A stretch of 64,000 nucleotides of DNA, taken from Myxococcus stipitatus. GTDB lineage: Bacteria > Myxococcota > Myxococcia > Myxococcales > Myxococcaceae. The notes under the pieces are model-generated. The model ran no database searches. It worked only from the letters and a program-made list of their open reading frames with translations, and was not told where the DNA came from. The stretch's first letter is position 1. Every line of letters starts with the position of its first letter. This document shows positions 34,359 to 64,000 of the stretch, one piece after another. The stretch spans positions 1,798,001 through 1,862,000 of the forward strand of contig NZ_CP147913.1 of assembly GCF_037414475.1 (NCBI RefSeq), in the 5' to 3' direction. Position numbers and translations under genes: made by a program.

Positions 34359-37103
34359 CTACTTGCTCAGCGGGTCATCCGGACGGGTGCCCCGCTCCAG
34401 TTCGTCCTGGTTGAGGACGCCGTCGTTGTCCCGGTCCACGCCCAGCGGGAACTCCATTCCTCGAGGCACGAGCGTGTACGTGAGCTCGCTCCCGGGCCGC
34501 GCCAGGGTCCTGAGCACGGAGGCGTTCACCACCTCCCGCGAGCGGTCCGACTGGAAGACGCCGTTGCCCACGTAGACGTAGCCACGGGCAAGTCCCCCCT
34601 GCCGGCCCCGCACGACCAGCCCCACCGCCTCCCTGTCCGCGAGTTGCTGGAACAGCGCCACGTCGCCCAGCTGCGAGGGCGCGGGATTCGGAGAGCTGAG
34701 CGTCACCTGCCGGCCCACGCCCGCGTGTGTGTCCTTGCTGGAGGGGCCCGGGGGCTCCATCACACTCGTCACCGAGCCCATGGGCAGGTCCGAACCCGAG
34801 AAGCTCAACAGGAAGGCCACCATGTCCGCGACCTCCTGCTCGGTCATGAGCTTGAAGGCCGTGACAGTCACGAACTCGGAGAGGGACGCCGTGGCGCCGT
34901 CATGGAAGTACCCGAAGCCCGCGAGGCTCTCCCGCTGCGAGAACTCCGTCCCGGCCTTCTGGTAGAGATTGCGCAGGTGCGGAACCTTGGTCGTCCCCGC
35001 CGTCGTCCCATCCTGGGAGACCAGGCCCAGGTGGCGCTCACCATGAGGGCCCGCGGGGAGCGGATTGAAGCGCGAGCCATCCCAGACGAAATCCGAGCCC
35101 AGCCCCGTGGGCAGCGTGTGGCAGGTGGAGCAGGCGAACACGTTGTTGTCCAAGAGGCGCGGCGGCCGGAACATCTGCAAGCCATTGACGGCGTTCCCCA
35201 CGGGGAGCGGGCGCCCGACGGGCGGGAACTTGTGCGGCGTGTAGTGCCCCGGCAAGGCCAGGCGCGTGGGCAGCGTGTTGTCCACGTTCCGGAAGGGATT
35301 GGGGGGGAAGGTCAGCGTGGCGAGGAAGTCCTCGAACTGCTGCATCTCCACCGCGGAGAGCATGGCGTCATCCCCTTGGAGCTTGATGAAGGCCGGGTTG
35401 AAGTCCTCGAGTCCCGCCCGGTCTCCGCGCCAGTGGTGAGGCTCCTTGCCGATGATGTCCTGGAGCGTCTGGGTGGTCATCGGCCCCTTCATGGAGTGCC
35501 AGTTCGTGAAGTCCTCCGTGAGCCCGGGGATGCCCATGCCCAGGTTCTGCCCGGCGATGGACTTCACGACATCGGAAGGGTCTCCCAAATCCCACGCCAA
35601 CCGGTCCATGCGTCCATCCACATGGCAGGAGCCACAGGAGATGTGCCCCAGCCCCGAGGTCTTGTGGGTGTCATAGAGGTGCTTGCGCCCCAGCTTGATG
35701 GCCTCGGGAGACGGGTCGAAGAACGGGACGCGGGCCACCTCCTTCTGCTGCTTCAAGTCCACGACGGAGATGCTGGCCGCGAACTTGTCCATCACGTAGG
35801 CCCGAGTCCCCGGGCGGTTGAGCACGATGCCCGTGGGCCCCTCCCCCACGGGAATGTTCGCCACACGCTGGCCCACCCCATCCACCACGACGACGTTGTT
35901 GGACCCCATCCCCGTCACGTAGCCCCGGGTGCCCGACGGGTGCCAGGCAATGCCTCGCGGGTCGCCAATGGACAAATCCCGCACCGACTGCGGCACCACC
36001 GGCACCGAGTAGTCCAGGTGAGGATTCAAGTCCCTCACCACGGAGCGGGATGGAGCGGAGGGGTTCACCGAGGCCAGCTGCACGCGAAGGAAGAGGCCCA
36101 CGATGTTCGGCTCGAAGCGCACCTGATTCGTCGCATCCGTCCCCACCACCGTCACCAGTCCGCTGGGGTGCACCGCCAGGGCCATGTTGAGGTTCATCAA
36201 GCCGGTGGCGTACGTCACCGCCAGGGTGGACGTGTTGATGATGGCCACGTCGCGGTCCGGCATGTCCCAGCCCTCGACGCGGCCGGAGAGCGCGGCGTTC
36301 TCGCCGCTCACCAGGCTGGTCCAATCCCCTTGATTGTCATCCATCCAACGGGCGCGCGCGTCCTTCTTCACGATGAGGCCCTGCGGCGGTGGCGGCGGGT
36401 TGTCGGGATTCAGGGGCGGCTCGAAATCCCTCCCGAAGTTGGGCGGAGGATTGACGCCTCCGTAGGGGCCTCGGGGGTCGCTCACGACGTTGGGCGGAAC
36501 CGGGTTGGGAAAGGTGCGGCCGCCCGACAGGAGCGTGGTGCGATTGCCGGACTCGAAGATGGCGACATACACGCGGGTGCCGGACTCGTTCACCGCCAAC
36601 GCCTTGGGACTCTCTCCCAGAATCGGGATTCGCCGGGGAGTGGCGAGCGGGCGGGCGGGGTCCACCACCAGCACCTGGTTCACCTGGGAGCAGGAGATGA
36701 AGGCCCGCTGGGGTGTCCCCGCGAAGACCACGTCCTCCGGCTCGTCATCGGTGGGGATGGTGTTGATGACATTGAGGGTGGACAGGTTGACGATGCTCAC
36801 ACTGTCGGAGATGTGGTTGACCACCCACGCCTCGGTGTTGGAGCGGGCCCGGACAGAGACAGGGTCCAGCCCCACGGGGATGGTGGCGGTGAGCGTCAGC
36901 GAGCCCTCTTGCGAGACCGCAAAGACTTGCAGTTGGTGGTCCGCCGTATTCACAGCCAGAAGCCGGGTACCATCTGGGGTCAGGTCCACCGGATGGACAT
37001 GAGGGCTTTCCCAGTTCACGAAAGTTTGTTCCGCCCTGGCCGTGCCAGACACGACAAGGAATCCTGCGACCAACCAAGACAAGAGCCGTCCTACGGGTGC
37101 CAT
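34359..37103 (-). CDS. Exported diheme c-type cytochrome with beta-propeller (YVTN-like) domain
   Basis: This is a periplasmic or surface protein of 914 residues. A signal peptide (MAPVGRLLSWLVAGFLVVSG, cut after ARA near residue 25) is followed by a repeat-rich beta-propeller to about residue 470, with blades such as TRLLAVNTADHQLQVF and GTRAYVMDKFAASISVVDL. A cytochrome region follows with heme sites CGSCH (490-494) and CSTCH (658-662). The pairing and spacing resemble the MauG/diheme peroxidase family. A DRDNDGVLNQDELERG loop near the end looks like a calcium-binding EF-hand. Likely work is redox chemistry or electron transfer outside the inner membrane, with unknown substrate. The ATG at 37103 has GGGAGG 7 bases upstream and opens the signal peptide; the open frame upstream is not coding-like. 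It is divergent from the membrane-protein gene and next to a second cytochrome gene. Confidence 0.88.
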   Translation of the reverse strand: MAPVGRLLSWLVAGFLVVSGTARAEQTFVNWESPHVHPVDLTPDGTRLLAVNTADHQLQVFAVSQEGSLTLTATIPVGLDPVSVRARSNTEAWVVNHISDSVSIVNLSTLNVINTIPTDDEPEDVVFAGTPQRAFISCSQVNQVLVVDPARPLATPRRIPILGESPKALAVNESGTRVYVAIFESGNRTTLLSGGRTFPNPVPPNVVSDPRGPYGGVNPPPNFGRDFEPPLNPDNPPPPPQGLIVKKDARARWMDDNQGDWTSLVSGENAALSGRVEGWDMPDRDVAIINTSTLAVTYATGLMNLNMALAVHPSGLVTVVGTDATNQVRFEPNIVGLFLRVQLASVNPSAPSRSVVRDLNPHLDYSVPVVPQSVRDLSIGDPRGIAWHPSGTRGYVTGMGSNNVVVVDGVGQRVANIPVGEGPTGIVLNRPGTRAYVMDKFAASISVVDLKQQKEVARVPFFDPSPEAIKLGRKHLYDTHKTSGLGHISCGSCHVDGRMDRLAWDLGDPSDVVKSIAGQNLGMGIPGLTEDFTNWHSMKGPMTTQTLQDIIGKEPHHWRGDRAGLEDFNPAFIKLQGDDAMLSAVEMQQFEDFLATLTFPPNPFRNVDNTLPTRLALPGHYTPHKFPPVGRPLPVGNAVNGLQMFRPPRLLDNNVFACSTCHTLPTGLGSDFVWDGSRFNPLPAGPHGERHLGLVSQDGTTAGTTKVPHLRNLYQKAGTEFSQRESLAGFGYFHDGATASLSEFVTVTAFKLMTEQEVADMVAFLLSFSGSDLPMGSVTSVMEPPGPSSKDTHAGVGRQVTLSSPNPAPSQLGDVALFQQLADREAVGLVVRGRQGGLARGYVYVGNGVFQSDRSREVVNASVLRTLARPGSELTYTLVPRGMEFPLGVDRDNDGVLNQDELERGTRPDDPLSK

Positions 37104-37228
37104 ATGGCGACCTCCCGAGCTGCCTGGTAAGTCAGACAAACACCGGGGTGCGGCTTTCCTGTCACTGGACCCGTGACGAGCCGGCAACCCACGTGGAGCG
37201 GTGGGATGGCGCGTCCCTGGAATGGGAC

Positions 37229-37244
37229 TGGCATCTGAATTGCT
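37229..37244 (+). promoter_or_regulatory. Sigma-54 (-24/-12) promoter candidate
   Basis: TGGCATCTGAATTGCT matches the RpoN consensus TGGCACNNNNNTTGCW at all but one of the fixed positions, with GG and GC twelve bases apart. It points toward the membrane-protein gene at 37370 and would give a leader of roughly 110 bases. RpoN promoters with enhancer-binding proteins are common in myxobacterial signal-dependent genes. Confidence 0.5.
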
Positions 37245-37369
37245 GTTGTATCTGCGCTGTTGCGTGACGACCACCGAGCCCGTGGTCAGCTGGCGGCACA
37301 CGGGCCCCGAGTGAGCGGCGTCCCCGAGGGTGACTCGCACTCAAAGTGTATCCCTGCTACCTTTGCTGG

Positions 37370-37948
37370 ATGCTCGCCCGCGCCCTCGCGTCCACCCTGG
37401 TCTGTGCGTCGGTCCTCTGGCCGCTCCAAGTCCTCGCGTGCATCAACGCGATGGATGGGACGCTCAGGGGATTCCACGAGTCCTTCGGGACCGACCTGGG
37501 GCTGTGGACCGTCGGCGCGGTGTTCCTGAATCGCGTCGTCCTCTTCAACAACGACGGGCCGCCCTCGCAACAGGTGCACAAGGTGTCCTGGGCCCGGCGG
37601 GCCTTCTTCCTGCTCGTCAGCGCCGCGTTCATCCTGGTGCTCGCCGCCGTCATGGCAGGGGGCCCCATCCTCACCATCAGCGCGGAGGACATCGCCCGGT
37701 GCTCGGTCAGCCTCCCCTTCCTGTTGGCGCTGGTCGCCAGTCCCGCGCTGCTCTTCAGCTTGCAGTCCGCGTTCTTCCAAGGCCCGGGCCGGCGGCTGTT
37801 CCGGAAGACGCGATGGGGCGCGCTCGTGGGGGTGGTGGTTTCGTCCCTGTTCCTGGTGATTGGACTGGGAATGGCCCGCGACACGTACATCCTCCCGAAG
37901 CTCTGCAAGGCGGGCCCGACCATTCTCGACCCGGAGCTCGTGTACTGA
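37370..37948 (+). CDS. Small multi-pass membrane protein, unknown function
   Basis: I do not recognise this 192-residue protein. It is mostly hydrophobic. A signal-like N-terminal segment (about residues 1-24) is followed by up to four further membrane segments, near residues 43-60, 76-98, 108-132 and 147-168. The ATG at 37370 starts the first hydrophobic segment; the open frame reaches back to 37346 without a better start. A sigma-54 promoter candidate lies 126 bases upstream. Only 22 bases separate it from the tetraheme cytochrome gene, so the two are probably one operon. A membrane partner for that cytochrome is a reasonable guess, but there is no heme-binding or quinone-binding motif to support it. 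Confidence 0.75.
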   Translation: MLARALASTLVCASVLWPLQVLACINAMDGTLRGFHESFGTDLGLWTVGAVFLNRVVLFNNDGPPSQQVHKVSWARRAFFLLVSAAFILVLAAVMAGGPILTISAEDIARCSVSLPFLLALVASPALLFSLQSAFFQGPGRRLFRKTRWGALVGVVVSSLFLVIGLGMARDTYILPKLCKAGPTILDPELVY

Positions 37949-37970
37949 GCCACTCCAGGCGCACCCTGCC

Positions 37971-39221
37971 GTGGACCTTCGCTCCCTCCCCTTCGCCGCT
38001 CTGACGGGTGCCGCACTCCTCGCCGCCACGGCCGCGGGAGCCTTCGTGCTCGTCCGCGATGCCGACATCGTGGCGCTGCGCTTTCCCACGAAGGTCCTCG
38101 CGCCCACGAAGCCGTCGCCCGAAAGCCCGCGCGAAGCCGTGGAGCACTTCCAATGCAATCGCTGTCACGTGGTGCCCGGCATCGAACCGGCCTCCGCCGC
38201 GCTGGGCGAGAACTGCGTGACGTGCCACCAGGCCATCACCGCCGGGAGGTTGGACCTCTGGTACAAGGAGGCCGAGGTCCTCAAGTGGAAGAAGAACCTC
38301 ACGCACCTGATGCGGACGCCCGACCTGGGCTCGGTGGGCCAGCGCATCAAACGAAGCTGGCTCGTCTCCTGGCTTCAAGCCCCGCATTCGGTGAGGCCGC
38401 TCTATGGGGCCACCATGCCCCGGATGAAGCTAGGCCCGAGGGACGCCGAGTTGATCGCCGACTTCCTCCACGTGACGGAGGAGGAGACCGCGGAGGACTC
38501 CAGCGGCGACGCGGCGGCGGGCCGGCTGCTCTATGAGAAGTACGGGTGTTCGACGTGTCACTTCCGCGCCGACGCGCCAGCCGAGGCCCCGGCCTATGGC
38601 TCCGAGGCGTTCCGCGCCGCCTCCGCTCGGCGAAGGGCTCCGGACCTGAAGCATGTGCGCGCCCGCATGTCGCTCGCGCAGCTGCGCCAGTGGCTGAGGG
38701 ACCCCCGCGGCGTCCTCCCCGACACGCAGATGCCCGTCTTCGCCTTCACGCCGAAGGAGGTCGAGGACCTGGTGGCCTTCCTCCGCGAGCCCCTGCCGGA
38801 GACGGAGCCAGGGCCGCGTGCTCCGTACAAGCCCCGGCGGCTCGAGCGGGAGGTGCACTATCCGGAGGTCGCGAAGAAGCTCACGCGCCATCTCTGCTAC
38901 CACTGCCACTCCGACAGCCGCCGCGCGGGAGACCAGGGCCCCGGCAACAGCGGCGGCTTCGGCTACACCGGCGCGTCACTCGACCTGGCCACACATGAAG
39001 GCATCCTCCGGGGCGTCAAGCGCGAGGGCCAGTTCCGTGGGCTGCCAGACCGCCTCGAGGACGGCACGCCGCGGCTGATCGCCACCCTGCTCGCGCGCCG
39101 CGCGGAGCTGGAGGGACACGCGCATCCAGACGTGTTGGGCATGCCGCTGGGTCTTCCGCCCATCCCGGACGAGGACATCGACCTCATCTCCACGTGGATA
39201 GAGCAAGGCGCCCCGCGATAG
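37971..39221 (+). CDS. Tetraheme c-type cytochrome, membrane anchored
   Basis: This is a 416-residue electron-transfer protein. A single hydrophobic N-terminal segment (about residues 7-27) should anchor it or export it. Four CxxCH heme-attachment sites follow: CNRCH (62-66), CVTCH (82-86), CSTCH (193-197) and CYHCH (309-313). The spacing suggests a di-site domain followed by two single-heme cytochrome c domains, and methionines suitable as sixth ligands are present (for example TMPRMK and TQMPVF). No ATG fits, and the GTG at 37971 begins right before the membrane segment, so I chose it. It probably shares a transcript with the small membrane protein upstream. Its partner and substrate are unknown. 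A hairpin follows the stop. Confidence 0.87.
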   Translation: MDLRSLPFAALTGAALLAATAAGAFVLVRDADIVALRFPTKVLAPTKPSPESPREAVEHFQCNRCHVVPGIEPASAALGENCVTCHQAITAGRLDLWYKEAEVLKWKKNLTHLMRTPDLGSVGQRIKRSWLVSWLQAPHSVRPLYGATMPRMKLGPRDAELIADFLHVTEEETAEDSSGDAAAGRLLYEKYGCSTCHFRADAPAEAPAYGSEAFRAASARRRAPDLKHVRARMSLAQLRQWLRDPRGVLPDTQMPVFAFTPKEVEDLVAFLREPLPETEPGPRAPYKPRRLEREVHYPEVAKKLTRHLCYHCHSDSRRAGDQGPGNSGGFGYTGASLDLATHEGILRGVKREGQFRGLPDRLEDGTPRLIATLLARRAELEGHAHPDVLGMPLGLPPIPDEDIDLISTWIEQGAPR

Positions 39222-39304: not shown

Positions 39305-39544
39305 TCACAAGTTGGTGGGACACGCGCTGCCGGCTTCGACGCAGCGGTAGTTGTATCCCCGGTTGGACACACAGCACTGCGTCGAGGGCGGGCACAGCTC
39401 CGGGTCCATCGCACACGTCACGGTCGGCTCGATGGCCCCCTCGCTCGTGGCCAGCGTCGTCTCGGCGCCCGTCGGCTCCATCTCTCCACCACCACACCCC
39501 GTCATCAATCCCATCACCAGCAAGGCACCCACGAAGATCCGCAT
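39305..39544 (-). CDS. Small cysteine-rich lipoprotein
   Basis: This 79-residue protein has a type II signal peptide, MRIFVGALLVMGLMTGC, whose lipobox LMTGC puts the lipidated cysteine at residue 17. The mature part has a Glu- and Thr-rich spacer and then a compact cysteine knot-like end (CAMDPELCPPSTQCC followed by two more cysteines), probably disulfide bonded. The function is unknown. Small Cys-rich lipoproteins of this build are frequent in myxobacteria, where many reach the outer membrane. GGGAG lies 5 bases before the ATG at 39544. The open frame runs further upstream to 39652, but that part does not look coding. Confidence 0.75.
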   Translation of the reverse strand: MRIFVGALLVMGLMTGCGGGEMEPTGAETTLATSEGAIEPTVTCAMDPELCPPSTQCCVSNRGYNYRCVEAGSACPTNL

Positions 39545-39678
39545 TGTCGCTCCCAAGATGTCACGGCGGTTGTCAACACACTCCCCGCAAGGCCCCGGCA
39601 ATGATTGCCTTTTGCACCACAAACCTGGAGTCGCGAAGAGTGTTCTCAGCATGAGTCAGTCATGCCGGGTAGAACCAT

Positions 39679-39703
39679 CCCAGAAACCTGGGAATGTTTT
39701 CCC
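39679..39703 (+). promoter_or_regulatory. Two overlapping inverted repeats upstream of the LuxR-type gene
   Basis: CCCAG-AAAC-CTGGG and GGGAA-TGTT-TTCCC are perfect 5-bp inverted repeats that share three bases. They sit 35-60 bases before the chosen start of the regulator gene, a position suitable for an operator. Nothing identifies the binding protein. Confidence 0.25.
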
Positions 39704-39737
39704 CACCCCACGATGCAAGGATGCGCATGAGAAGCCG

Positions 39738-40826
39738 ATGGTGACTCGCACTCGGGTCGAGTACGAACTGCTGGGGGCCCTTCGCGACCTCGCCAAGGCC
39801 ACGCTCCCCCTGGGACGACTGCTCACGGAGCTCAATTCCTTGCTCCGCGAACCCATGGGCTACGACGGAAGCTGCTGGCACGGCACGGACCCCGCCACCG
39901 GGTTCGTGACCTCGACGGTGGCGGAGAACCTGGACCCGCGCGGCTTCGAGCGCGCCGCCGCCTTGGAGATGTGGGCTCCCGAGCCCTTGACCTTCACCCG
40001 GCTGCGCGCGTCCGGACGAAGGGCGGCGACACTCCTCCAGGCCGCGAGGGGACACCCCGAGGACAGCGCCCGCTTTCGCGAGCTGCTGCAGCCCGTGGGC
40101 TTCGGGGATGAGCTTCGCATCAACTTCGACCTGCCCTCCGGATGTTGGGGCTCGGCGGTGTTCATGCGCTCCGCGGACCGAGGCCCCTTCACCGCGCGCG
40201 AGCTGGGCCTGGCCGAGCGGCTCGCGCCCCACATCAGCCAGCTCTTGTGCCGCGCCTATCCGAGCGACCTGACCGAAGGCCCCGAGCCCCTGCTTCCCGG
40301 CGTCGCCGTGCTGGGTCCCACCGGCAAGCTGATGTCCGTGGACTCACGCGGCGAAGCGGTCCTGGAGGAGCTGGCCGAGACGATTCCCTCCCCCAATGGC
40401 ATCCCCACCGGATTCATCGCCGTCGCCGAGCACGCACGAGGCGTCGCCGCCACCGGCCGCGCGGGCCTGCCCTCCCGCTCCCGCGTGCGCACCCATCGAG
40501 GCCGGTGGCTGACCCTGCACGCCACCCTCCTGGATGGCGCTCCCTCGGGGCAGGTCGCCATCGTCGCGGCTCCCGCCACGCCCTCGGAGATTCTTCCCAT
40601 GGCCTTGATGGGCATGGGGCTCAGCGCCCGAGAGCAGGACGTCGCGGTGCTCGTGCTCCGGGGACACGACACCGCCACCATCTCCCGGGCGCTCTACATC
40701 ACCCCGGCGACGGTCCAGGACCACTTGAAGTCCATCTTCACCAAGTCCGGCGTCCGCAGCCGCCGCGCGTTCGCCGCCCGGCTCATGGGCCCGCTCGTCA
40801 CCGCGGCCCTGCCACCCGCCCGGTGA
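39738..40826 (+). CDS. LuxR-type transcriptional regulator
   Basis: This 362-residue DNA-binding protein has a C-terminal LuxR/FixJ helix-turn-helix: LSAREQDVAVLVLRGHDTATISRAL, then TPATVQDHLKSIFTKSGV. The N-terminal 280 residues show no receiver aspartate or autoinducer-pocket signature I can name. They look like a GAF- or PAS-type sensor, which is tentative. Several starts are possible: the frame is open from 39351, and MSQSC lies near 39650. I chose the ATG at 39738, where a typical helix begins. The gene ends one base from the convergent stop of the deiminase-like gene and lies about 1 kb from cluster B. A pathway-specific role is plausible but unproven. Confidence 0.85.
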   Translation: MVTRTRVEYELLGALRDLAKATLPLGRLLTELNSLLREPMGYDGSCWHGTDPATGFVTSTVAENLDPRGFERAAALEMWAPEPLTFTRLRASGRRAATLLQAARGHPEDSARFRELLQPVGFGDELRINFDLPSGCWGSAVFMRSADRGPFTARELGLAERLAPHISQLLCRAYPSDLTEGPEPLLPGVAVLGPTGKLMSVDSRGEAVLEELAETIPSPNGIPTGFIAVAEHARGVAATGRAGLPSRSRVRTHRGRWLTLHATLLDGAPSGQVAIVAAPATPSEILPMALMGMGLSAREQDVAVLVLRGHDTATISRALYITPATVQDHLKSIFTKSGVRSRRAFAARLMGPLVTAALPPAR

Positions 40827-40827
40827 G

Positions 40828-41775
40828 TCAGGCGGCCCTGCGCCGCAGCGGCATCGTCAGGCAGCGCACGCTGCCATTGCCGCCCTCGAGCGCTTCGACA
40901 TCCACGCTCACCACCTCCATCCCCAGCCCCCGCACCAGCGCACGCAGGTGCGGCGCGGCCCCTTCCGAGGCGAGGAGCAACCGCTGCTCCAGGTGGATGA
41001 AGTTGGAGAGGAACGGGTGCGTGTTCCCCGGCTCGAAGGTGACGACGCGGCGCCCTCGCTGGACGAAGTAGTCCTCGAACGACTCCCAGCGCGCCGCTTG
41101 TCCTCGCACGCAGACCCGGAGCGGGCAGTGGCGCAAGAAGGCCCGCGCCAGGACCGCCTCCTCACCGAGCACGTTGAAGGCCAGGTCCAGGTGGATGATG
41201 CCCAGGTTCTCCGGAATGCGGACGACCACCACTTCCTCGAAGCCCGCCTCCCACGCCAGCTCCACGAAGTCCCGCGCGGACCGCGCATCACTGCGCAGGC
41301 CCACGTTGACCAGCAGCCTCCGCTCCCCCAGCAGGAAGACGTCCCCGAACTCCACGCGCGCCACCGACGCCCACTCCACGTCGCCTTCCGGACGCCCCAT
41401 CAACCGCGACAGCGCGCCATGCGTCACGTCGAACTCGGCCAACCGTGCGGGGAACGCCGCGGCGCCGCGAACCAACCGCGACCCCAACGCCACCGCCGTG
41501 TCACGCACAAATACCCTGTTCACCGTGGTGTTGCTGACGACCCGGTCCGCGGGTGACAGGAAATCCACCAGGTCGATGGCGCGACAGCCAAAGGACCCCA
41601 ACACCTCGCGGAGCCGGTTTGAAGCGTCCTGCGCTTCAACTCTTGTCACGATTCGAGAAAACCCGACGGCGGCGGCTTCCTCGTCCGATGAGACGTCCAG
41701 CGCTGCGGGCTGGAAGACCACCAGGCTGTCCAGCCGGCCGTCCTCCGACCAGCACTCGATTTCCCCAAATGCCAT
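40828..41775 (-). CDS. Guanidino-modifying enzyme, arginine deiminase/amidinotransferase superfamily
   Basis: This 315-residue soluble enzyme shows the catalytic set of the superfamily: FVRD (Asp92), HLDLAF (His195, Asp197) and GGNGSVRCLTMPL, where Cys305 is the expected nucleophile. Relatives hydrolyse arginine or methylarginines to citrulline, or move an amidino group between amines. The length is nearer to dimethylarginine-hydrolase or amidinotransferase types than to arginine deiminase (about 400 residues). The ATG at 41775 is the only good start. It diverges from the hybrid PKS-NRPS gene, with about 43 bases between the two start codons, so shared control is likely. It may make an unusual precursor or tailor the cluster B peptide, which is inference. 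Exact reaction cannot be chosen from the sequence. Confidence 0.85.
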   Translation of the reverse strand: MAFGEIECWSEDGRLDSLVVFQPAALDVSSDEEAAAVGFSRIVTRVEAQDASNRLREVLGSFGCRAIDLVDFLSPADRVVSNTTVNRVFVRDTAVALGSRLVRGAAAFPARLAEFDVTHGALSRLMGRPEGDVEWASVARVEFGDVFLLGERRLLVNVGLRSDARSARDFVELAWEAGFEEVVVVRIPENLGIIHLDLAFNVLGEEAVLARAFLRHCPLRVCVRGQAARWESFEDYFVQRGRRVVTFEPGNTHPFLSNFIHLEQRLLLASEGAAPHLRALVRGLGMEVVSVDVEALEGGNGSVRCLTMPLRRRAA

Positions 41776-41818
41776 CGAATCGCACCTGCCACGCGGTCGC
41801 TACCTAGACCTCTAATTG

Positions 41819-50181
<8,363 letters not shown>

Positions 50182-50185
<4 letters not shown>

Positions 50186-53100
50186 GCTCCATCACCCCGC
50201 GCCCCATCGACGCGTTGATGCACCACCTGCGCGGCCTGGACATCCGGCTGTGGCTGGAGGGCGAGCGGCTGCGCTTCAGCGCCCCACCCGGAGCTCTCAC
50301 CCCCGCGCTCCAGGCCGAGCTGAAGGACCGCAAGGCCGAGGTCCTCACCTTCCTGCAAGACGCCGCACAGGCCACGCGCGGCGTCGCGGAGAACATCCCT
50401 CGCCGCCCGGACAACGAGCCGCCACCACTGTCCTCGAGCCAGCAGCGGCTGTGGTTCCTGGAGCAGCTCGAGGGACCGTCGGGCGCCTATACGATGCCCG
50501 CGGCGCTGCGCCTCACGGGTGCGCTGGACACGAACGCCCTGGGGCGCGCGCTGAGCGCCATCGTCCAACGTCACGACGTGCTGCGCACGCGCTACGCCTT
50601 GGTCAACGGGCGGCCTGTCCAGCACCTCTTGCCCGAGTCCACCGTGACAGTGGAGCAGGTGGACCTGGAGGCCCTCTCTCCGGATGCGCGGCACGCGGAG
50701 GTCCAGCGCCGCGCGGCAGAGGAAGCACGCGCGCCGTTCGACGTGTCACAGGACATGCCGCTGCGCGCGCGCCTGCTCCGGCTGGAGGCACGCGAGCACG
50801 TGCTGCTGCTCACGCTGCACCACATCGCCAGCGACGGCTGGTCCCTGGGCGTGTTGATGCGGGAGCTGGCCGCGCACTACCAGGCGTTCATCACGGGAGG
50901 AGAAGCCACGCTCCCCGCCCTGCCCATCCAGTACGCGGACTATGCGCACTGGCAGCGGCGGCGCATGGACGATGGAGCCATGAAGGCCCACGTCGAGTGG
51001 TGGCGCGAGCGTCTCTCCGGAGCTCCGGCCCTGCTCGAGCTGCCCACGGACCGACCTCGCCCCACGGCCCAGCGCTTCCTCGGTGCCACGCGGCGATTCA
51101 CCGTCCCCGCGCCCCTCACCGTCCAGCTCAAGCAGCGCGCCCGTGACGCGGAGGCCACGCTGTTCATGACGCTGCTGGCCGCGTTCGGAGTGCTGCTCTC
51201 GCGCTACAGCGGCCAGCGCGACGTCGTGGTCGGAACGCCCATCGCCAACCGGCCCGCTTCGACGGAGAGCCTCATCGGGCTCTTCGCCAACACGCTCCCG
51301 CTGCGTGTGTCCCTGGAGGGAGACCCGACCTTCTCGGCGCTGCTCCGAGAAGTGCGCCGCGACACGCTCGCCGCCTACACCCATCAGGACGTCCCTCTCG
51401 AACAGCTCGTCGAAGCGCTCCAGCCCGCTCGCGACCTGAGTCACCCACCGCTGTTCCAGGTCCTGCTCACCCTCCAGAACACGCCTCCCGCGTCGCTCTC
51501 CCTTCCCGGGCTGTCGCTGGAGTTGCTGGAGGTGGAGAGCGGGACGTCGCAGTTCGACCTGTCGCTGTCCCTGACGGAGACGAACCAGGGCCTCGCGGCG
51601 GAGCTCAACTACAACACCGACCTGTTCGACGAAGCGACGGCCGCCCGCATCACGGACCACTTCGTGTGCCTGCTGGAGCAGGTCGCGGAAGCGCCCGAGC
51701 GCGCCGTCTCACGCCTCCCCCTGCTGCGCGAGCCCGAGCGCGCCACCTTGTTGCACGCGTGGAATGACACGGGGATGGAGCTCTCCGGTGCCCCCACCCT
51801 CCATGGCCTCTTCGAGGCACAGGCCGCGCGCCGCCCGGACGCCATCGCCGTCCGCTTCGGCTCCAGCGCCCTGACGTACGCGGAGCTGAACACGCGGGCT
51901 CAGCGCGTCGCGGACCACCTGAGGCACCTGGGAATCGGGCCCGGCCACCGAGTGGGCCTCTTCCTCGAGCGCGGGCTCGACCTCCTCGCGGGGCTGCTCG
52001 GCATCCTCAAGTCGGGGGCGGCCTACGTTCCCCTCGACCCGATGTATCCGGCGCCTCGGCTGATGCACATCCTCGAGGACAGCGGCGTCGCGGCGCTCCT
52101 CTCCGAGCCGGAGCTGACCGCGCTCGTCCCCAACTGGAACGGGCGCATCGTCCGCATCTCCGACACGGCTGGAGCCTCGCCCGACGGAGTGGGGACACAC
52201 CCGCGCGGCGCCGACCTGGCGTACGTGCTCTACACCTCCGGCTCGACGGGCCGGCCCAAGGGCGTGGCCGTGCCCCATGAGGCCGCCGTCAACTTCCTGA
52301 CGTCGATGCGGCGCGAGCCCGGGATGACCGAGCGCGACACGTTGCTCGCCGTGACGACCATCGCCTTCGACATCTCCGTGCTGGAGCTGTTCCTCCCGTT
52401 GAGCGTGGGCGGATGTGTCGTCATCGCGAGCCAGGAAGAGGCCATGGACGGCACGCGCCTGTTGCCGCTCATGGCGGCGAGCGGCGCCACGATGATGCAG
52501 GCCACGCCCTCCACCTGGCGGATGTTGTTGTCGCTGGGCTGGTCCGGTCCCCCTTCGTTGAAGCTGCTCTGTGGCGGCGAGGCACTCCCTTCCGAGCTGC
52601 TGGCCCCGCTGCGCGCACGCTGCACGGAACTGTGGAACATGTATGGCCCCACGGAGACCACCGTGTGGTCCACCGTGTCCCGGCTCGAGGCGGGCGACGC
52701 CATCACGCTCGGCAAGCCCATCGCCAACACCCAGGCCCATGTGCTGGATGCGTGGCTCCAGCCCGTCCCGCCCGGCGTGGTGGGGACGCTGTACCTGGGG
52801 GGATTGGGCGTGGCGCGTGGCTACCTCAACCGCCCGGAGCTCACCGCGGAGCAGTTCGTTCCGGACCCGCATTCCCACCGTCCCGGCGCGCGCCTCTACC
52901 GCACGGGAGACCTGGCGCGACGGAGGTCCGATGGCGCGCTCGAGTTCCTGGGGCGCGGCGATGGACAGGTGAAGCTGCGAGGCCACCGCATCGAGCTGGG
53001 AGACATCGAGGCGCGGCTCGCCCAGCACCCTGGCGTGGCGGAGACCGCGGTGCGCCCATGGGGACCCGCGAGCGACCCGGCGCTGGTCGCCTATGTCCGG

Positions 53101-53634
53101 CCCGGCCCCGGCTCCACACTCGACGAGGCGGCGCTGCGCGAGCACCTGCGCGCGCAGCTCCCCGCGTACATGCTGCCCACGTACTTCATGGTGCTGGAGT
53201 CCTTCCCCCGCACCGCCAACAACAAGCTGGACCGCAAGGCGCTCCCCCCTCCCGAGGTGAGCGCCCGCGCCGCCGCCACGTTCATCGCACCGAGCACGCC
53301 GGACGAGCAGCGGCTCGCCGACATCTGGCGCGAGGTGCTGGGCGTGGAACGCGTCGGCATGGACGATGACTTCTTCGCCCTGGGTGGCCATTCGATGAAG
53401 GCCGTCCAGGCGCTCGCGCGCATTCAAGAAGCATGGCGCGTGGAGGTCTCGCTGCGTGTCCTCTTCGAGCACCCCACCCTGGGTGCCATGGCGAAGCACC
53501 TGGAGGCCGCTCGGCCCGCGCCGTCACGGCCCGCGCCGCCTCCGCTCATCGCCCGCCCCCGGCAGGCGCGCCGCGTCCAGGCCGACTCGCGCGCCGACCT
53601 CAACCTGCCGGACTCGTCCACGCATTCCGACTAG
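50182..53634 (+). CDS. Single-module NRPS with TubC-like docking domain, C-A-T, predicted Gly
   Basis: This 1,150-residue synthetase adds one residue in cluster B. Residues about 8-60 (DALMHHLRGLDIRLWLEGER and the helix after it) look like a TubC N-terminal docking domain, which lets it receive the chain from the hybrid protein. The C domain has HHIASDGWS from residue 213. The A domain has YTSGSTGRPKG and Lys1015, and its code D-I-L-Q-L-G-M-V-W-K is close to the known Gly code DILQLGLIWK. The carrier serine is Ser1071 (FFALGGHSMKA). A Pro- and Arg-rich tail of about 45 residues follows. It starts with GTG overlapping the previous stop (GTGA), which implies translational coupling. The next NRPS begins 48 bases downstream. 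Confidence 0.93.
50203..50361 (+). other. TubC-type N-terminal docking domain
   Basis: About 53 residues match the TubC docking fold pattern: an amphipathic helix, a two-strand segment (IRLWLEGERLRFSAPPG) and a closing helix (ALQAELKDRKAEVLTFL). No such domain is seen on the following NRPS protein, which starts directly with its C domain. Confidence 0.75.

Positions 53635-53682: not shown

Positions 53683-64000
<10,318 letters not shown>

Follow-up and report, generated by a model that had tools for sequence, protein, structure and literature searches.

The gene at 40828–41775 of the 64,000-nucleotide stretch of DNA analysed here (the window) encodes a compact arginine deiminase-like protein and is a member of the lipopeptide cluster beside it, to which it is strongly linked. 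The enzyme may serve as a dedicated arginine deiminase (ADI) that turns free L-arginine into L-citrulline for the lipopeptide assembly line, most likely as X, the residue of the cluster's first module, and we hold this reading tentatively, as the leading candidate rather than a settled assignment. The features on which the argument draws are the following.

40828..41775, minus strand: compact arginine deiminase-like enzyme, 315 aa, with the catalytic set D92, E142, H195, D197, C305 and with N86, R111, R161, G299 at arginine-binding positions
41776..41869, no strand: probable divergent intergenic region, GC 0.67, 0.30 and 0.33 in successive 30-base blocks
41870..50185, plus strand: PKS-NRPS with KS, AT, AMT, C, A and three carrier-protein stretches, module 1 code DAENIGAITK (the listed ORF begins at TTG 41816)
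50182..53634, plus strand: NRPS module 2, TubC docking-C-A-T with the Gly-type code DILQLGMVWK
53683..64000, plus strand: NRPS modules 3–6, 4781 aa in all, with Thr, Asn, Phe-like (with E-domain motifs) and Orn-like codes, extending past the window end (L042, L101)
beyond the window end: module 7 with TE (C-A-T-TE, Orn-like), then an MFS transporter and a FAAL-like AMP ligase

The deiminase-like reading frame opens with ATG and runs for 315 codons. Its product matches the Pfam ADI model PF02274 at E=3.3e-15 (56.5 bits against a gathering cut-off of 22.8, residues 85–209), the sole match to that model in its own genome. The narrower NCBIfam thresholds are missed, both for the arcA equivalog TIGR01078 (48.6 vs 489.1 bits), a cut-off that an arc-operon ADI of Rhizobium also misses (466.5 bits), and for the DDAH equivalogs (27.4 vs 340 bits and 21.4 vs 300 bits), and the protein is not among the matches to the Arg_dihydro model NF052232 at E 0.001. 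Values of dN/dS between 0.09 and 0.35 in ten chosen pairs out of 18 sequences suggest that the protein is maintained, and the reading frame looks to be under maintenance.

Asp92, His195 and Cys305, which the first-pass annotation had reported as catalytic residues, are all in place and, together with E142, D197, N86, R111, R161 and G299, show no substitution across the 18 aligned orthologues. The catalytic set of C305, H195, E142, D92 and D197 is also found in three aligned outside references (24–28% identity), namely an ADI of Rhizobium taken from an operon with an antiporter, OTC and carbamate kinase, and two compact ADI-like proteins of Alphaproteobacteria; equivalents of R111 and R161 are kept in all three, and N86 is common to the Rhizobium ADI only. 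In alignments with PDB entries the conserved residues coincide with those that ADI uses for catalysis and for arginine binding, and N86, R111, R161 and G299 align with Asn155, Arg180, Arg232 and Gly392, through which the M. arginini ADI holds arginine according to the part of PMC3474736 used here. Judged by these residues, the protein has an intact guanidino-modifying active site, in agreement with the earlier proposal that it acts on a guanidino compound.

Both profile and fold comparisons point toward ADI. The PDB profile matches rank ADIs first and DDAHs next, and no amidinotransferase appears among the 21 matches up to E=10. The AlphaFold model of the protein is of middling confidence (pLDDT 65.5, with poor active-site loops), and despite this Foldseek and VIA-align both place ADI on top. 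The VIA-align values for ADI (Z 20.1–21.6, rmsd 3.6–4.1, 290–297 aligned), whose Z is favoured by the longer ADI chains, may be set beside those for DDAH (Z 14.8–17.6, rmsd 3.6–4.2, 238–254 aligned), amidinotransferases (Z 16.1–17.3, rmsd 3.9–4.4, 258–266 aligned) and ArgZ/AgrE (Z 16.3–16.9, rmsd 3.6–3.9, 247–253 aligned), with peptidyl-arginine deiminases lower (Z 14.3–14.7). At the position of E142 the alignment gives Glu in the deiminase-like protein and Asp (FDAA) in StrB1 and HsvA, and at that of D92 (FVRD) the solved ArgZ sequences have Asn (FTAN), a residue that reportedly decides the reaction. An EGGD motif is likewise present in L021, a distant relative closer to the amidinotransferases, so that a Glu at this position does not mark hydrolysis alone. 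By the E142 and D92 markers the protein is of the deiminase type, neither marker being proof, and the earlier assignment to either deiminases or amidinotransferases can be narrowed, E142 and the ADI-type ligands favouring a free-arginine deiminase over an amidinotransferase. From these residues and rankings we infer both hydrolysis rather than transfer and free arginine as the substrate, and the chemistry is probably that of a free-arginine deiminase.

The distribution of the gene ties it to the synthetase next to it. Orthologues (about 58–91% identity) occur in 20 other genomes, and in all 20 neighbourhoods, each of which was checked, the orthologue stands head-to-head (divergent) with the KS-AT-AMT-NRPS gene. 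Three of these neighbourhoods (L067–L069) were assigned to the genomes G166, G161 and G164 by their contig positions. Among 145 relatives the orthologue is present in 18, comprising its own genome, 15 of the 26 remaining genomes of the genus and two from outside it, and three further genomes have weak superfamily matches only. At 74% identity or above, the AMT domain occurs in these 18 of the 145 genomes and in no others (the nearest AMT below that level has 60% identity), which upholds the dedication to the lipopeptide cluster that the first-pass annotation had claimed; homologues in genomes lacking this cluster (cluster B), which it had named as evidence against that claim, were not encountered among the 145 relatives. 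At the scale of the phylum 21 of 195 genomes, own included, carry the orthologue, with the cluster adjoining in 21 of 21, and within the genus the PF02274 matches are accounted for by this gene, in 16 of the 27 genomes, and by one further match, in G013. Pairwise distances of the ADI and of the KS-AT, AMT and C domains are highly correlated (r 0.96–0.98, 18 genomes), a figure drawn from linked genes only, so that shared descent alone could yield it. A scan of genome contigs with two peptide patterns, which is blind to distant relatives, matched 47 stretches, ten of them confirmed at 58–80% identity, and tblastn against 72,556 plasmid records returned four matches at 26–29% identity. One record that carries the cluster is titled Comamonas sp. 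KCTC 72670 (L063), an organism name that looks wrong.

Cluster B is set apart from the rest of the window as the group of genes kept beside the ADI in 17 of 17 neighbourhoods. The other NRPS cluster of the window, cluster A (an 8585-aa NRPS, 12–25769), was considered as a partner and rejected; its first 1500 residues match at 37–38% only, inside the cluster B synthetase, in a check that covered 17 neighbourhoods with ~10 kb on each side, so that cluster A could sit further out. Some genes lying between clusters A and B in the window are retained in L025–L027. L025 is the one neighbourhood in which the gene with lactonase-like and CCP_MauG matches (34359–37340) is near the ADI, and the protein encoded at 37860–39221, which has several CxxCH motifs, is matched near the ADI in L025–L027. 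A LuxR-type regulator (39351–40826), convergent with the ADI gene and scoring 139.5 bits against a cut-off of 700 for NF041232 BagY/FevT, is near the ADI only in L025–L027 of the 17 neighbourhoods; its homology begins at residue 103–130, so that translation probably begins downstream of the listed TTG.

Cluster B reads beta-amino acyl-X-Gly-Thr-Asn-Phe-Orn-Orn-TE. The codes for Gly, Thr, Asn, Phe and Orn were assigned from signatures that we take to be characteristic of these residues, the two Orn-type modules, 6 and 7, having the code DVGE[VI]GSIDK. Across nine genomes the seven module codes scarcely vary (62 of 63 modules could be read, the 63rd being the Gly module of G012, whose gene was dropped by ORF picking). 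In the 4781-aa NRPS, which has four A domains, E-domain motifs follow module 5, and Pfam finds six condensation stretches vs five expected (four C and one E). The assignments agree with the antiSMASH string in the available part of PMC9581180, where antiSMASH mining is the source of a printed FA-X-Gly-Thr-Asn-Phe-Orn-Orn-TE for M. xanthus and M. hansupus, and cluster B is therefore, on that string, already known in silico. Neither 'deiminase' nor 'amidinotransferase' occurs in the main text of that paper, and a literature search for Myxococcus, nonribosomal peptide and arginine deiminase together found no paper.

The code D-A-E-N-I-G-A-I-T-K had been read correctly in the first-pass annotation and belongs to module 1. 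It is the only module code in cluster B without a residue assignment, and every one of the 18 orthologues of the module 1 A domain retains it in full. The next 12 A-domain loci among the matches listed are 45–50% identical, and one of these, G090, has DAENIGAITK in a different, unrelated NRPS cluster; since the G090 genome has no PF02274 match, X is not always paired with an ADI. That cluster (L132–L134, G090:C5 290001–350000), from another family of the order, combines its DAENIGAIT module with two further codes without assignment, DAEDMSNIS and DAETLGVIS. Several positions of the module 1 code are common with DMENLGLINK, which we take to be a formyl-hydroxyornithine code, and the literature search found no occurrence of either DAENIGAIT or DMENLGLINK.

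On the citrulline reading, the enzyme would bind free L-arginine or a close analogue via N86, R111 and R161, Cys305 would attack the guanidino carbon with departure of ammonia, and His195 and E142, with D92 and D197, would drive hydrolysis to L-citrulline. The citrulline could then feed the assembly line, most likely at module 1, to give a beta-amino acyl-Cit-Gly-Thr-Asn-D-Phe-Orn-Orn peptide released by the TE. Module 1 as the destination is the weakest step, a possible but doubtful one. Free citrulline is moreover an ordinary intermediate of arginine biosynthesis, so that a dedicated supply enzyme is not strictly needed, which speaks against the citrulline reading.

The arginine metabolism of the host bears on this question. 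Neither of its two matches to TIGR00658 (OTC family) passes the OTC cut-off, one being an N-acetylornithine carbamoyltransferase (NF003384, 438.6 bits, cut-off 288) beside argB (L096:1483–2544, own genome 7.594 Mb) and the other an aspartate carbamoyltransferase, and none of its three PF00491 proteins passes the arginase cut-off. With a carbamoyltransferase of the N-acetylornithine type and no protein above the OTC cut-off, the host probably synthesises arginine by a route that bypasses free ornithine; free ornithine is therefore no obvious intermediate of the arginine pathway, yet two modules need it, and this keeps ornithine-forming alternatives alive despite the deiminase-like residues. A second guanidino-fold protein in the same genome (L001:1051–1947, own genome 5.297 Mb, 298 aa) matches DDAH and arginine dihydrolase models, including NF052232, and ArgZ structures rather than ADI.

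The foremost alternative, though a rather unlikely one, is an amidinotransferase that transfers the amidino moiety from arginine to an acceptor, such as an amine in the product or a small amine, and thereby frees ornithine for modules 6 and 7. It would answer the need for ornithine at two Orn-type modules, StrB1, SxtG and HsvA are relatives in fold, and, according to the available part of PMC2242806, the only arginine amidinotransferases demonstrated in prokaryotes to date belong to the biosynthesis of antibiotics or toxins. The protein nonetheless has E142 in place of the Asp of StrB1 and HsvA, and ADIs come first in sequence and fold comparisons alike, with amidinotransferases missing from the 21 PDB profile matches. 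Deacetylation of N-acetylornithine is another possible source of ornithine. An arginine dihydrolase of the ArgZ type, which would supply the same two modules by converting arginine to ornithine, CO2 and ammonia (the ArgZ reaction as stated in part of PMC9952445), draws on the same want of an OTC or arginase over curated cut-offs and on the fold shared with ArgZ and AgrE, and is improbable considering that D92 stands where ArgZ has Asn and that NF052232 at E 0.001 matches the 298-aa protein but not the 315-aa one. In a more general form, a compact ADI-fold enzyme captured by the lipopeptide cluster might cleave or transamidinate arginine to give free ornithine for the two Orn modules through an E/D active site hitherto associated with deiminases, and we regard this as unlikely.

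The enzyme might instead act late, so that the assembled peptide is deiminated or amidinated, for example at an Arg loaded by module 6 or 7 or at an Orn side chain; in keeping with this it is a separate protein, and its gene adjoins the first synthetase gene but is read from the other strand. None of the seven module codes is what we take to be an Arg code, which would suit such a step, but R111 and R161, the carboxylate-binding arginines of free-arginine ADI, are both kept and peptidyl-arginine deiminases fall lower in the fold ranking, and this alternative has a small chance of being correct. That the gene is a chance neighbour engaged in general arginine catabolism is most improbable: in its favour the protein is arginine deiminase-like, but every genome in which the gene turned up has it next to the cluster (18 of 18 among the 145 relatives, 21 of 21 among the 195 phylum genomes), and without an OTC over the cut-off there is no evident ADI pathway in the host, by which a canonical ADI pathway was rejected.

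For the deiminase and its synthetase, the intergenic region likely serves as a regulatory region shared by both divergent genes, as its arrangement and conservation suggest. The first-pass annotation had placed a shared promoter island in a spacer of about 43 bases, and this estimate probably does not hold: the ATG at 41819 that bounds it is found in none of the other six loci of the clade and the listed PKS start (41816/41819) is not conserved, whereas TTG 41870 is the first in-frame start common to seven of seven clade loci, so that the spacer is probably ~94 nt. Among four close loci these 94 bases are identical at 87–93 positions vs 78–87 of 94 in the next 94 bases, and in nine M. xanthus-type loci 193–196 nt separate the ADI from the first in-frame PKS ATG. 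No consensus sigma-70 site was seen in 41700–41960, and Rfam at gathering scores gave no match over 30000–64000. An element, GAGCGCTGGCACCAGAA.TTTACC, lies between ADI and PKS ~82 bases from the ADI start in nine of nine M. xanthus-type loci (L009–L017) and is absent from the other nine loci at up to two errors; the TGGCAC within it is presumably a half-match to a sigma-54 site.

A guanidino-modifying enzyme is thus paired one-to-one with a lipopeptide cluster of wide occurrence in Myxococcus, for which no described product was found in the literature consulted, and it offers a concrete handle on X, the residue of the cluster's one code without assignment. Should the enzyme produce citrulline, it would be a deiminase dedicated to supplying an NRPS; should it produce ornithine, the residue rule that separates deiminases from transferases would be broken.

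Among known systems, bacterial ADIs of the ArcA type (PF02274/TIGR01078; PDB 1LXY, 1RXX, 4E4J) share the active-site Cys, His and Glu and the two Asp, as well as the Asn/Arg/Arg trio that according to PMC3474736 grips the amino acid end of arginine, but measure ~410 aa vs 315 aa here. The same source gives canonical ADI an extra domain that is absent from amidinotransferase, DDAH and AgDI structures, and the 315-aa protein lacks it by alignment, being gapped over most of an insertion present in the Rhizobium ADI, to which it is 24% identical. Canonical ArcA neighbours arcB/arcC, whereas the deiminase-like gene adjoins a synthetase. The compact 'arginine deiminase family' proteins of Sphingobium (WP_270093818.1) and Komagataeibacter (WP_110547409.1) are alike in length (~300 aa), catalytic residues and R111/R161 equivalents, and differ in identity (24–28%), in having no Asn at the N86 position and in having no synthetase genes in the surrounding 5.6–6.9 kb. 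The amidinotransferases StrB1, SxtG and HsvA (the last of which belongs to a natural-product pathway) have the same fold and perform guanidino chemistry inside a product pathway, and differ in the Asp for E142 in StrB1/HsvA and in their lower Z of 16.1–17.3; the arginine dihydrolase ArgZ/AgrE shares the fold and the catalytic Cys, ArgZ having the Asn of FTAN vs D92 here. The orphan Myxococcus gene cluster described in the available part of PMC9581180 has the same predicted peptide string as cluster B.
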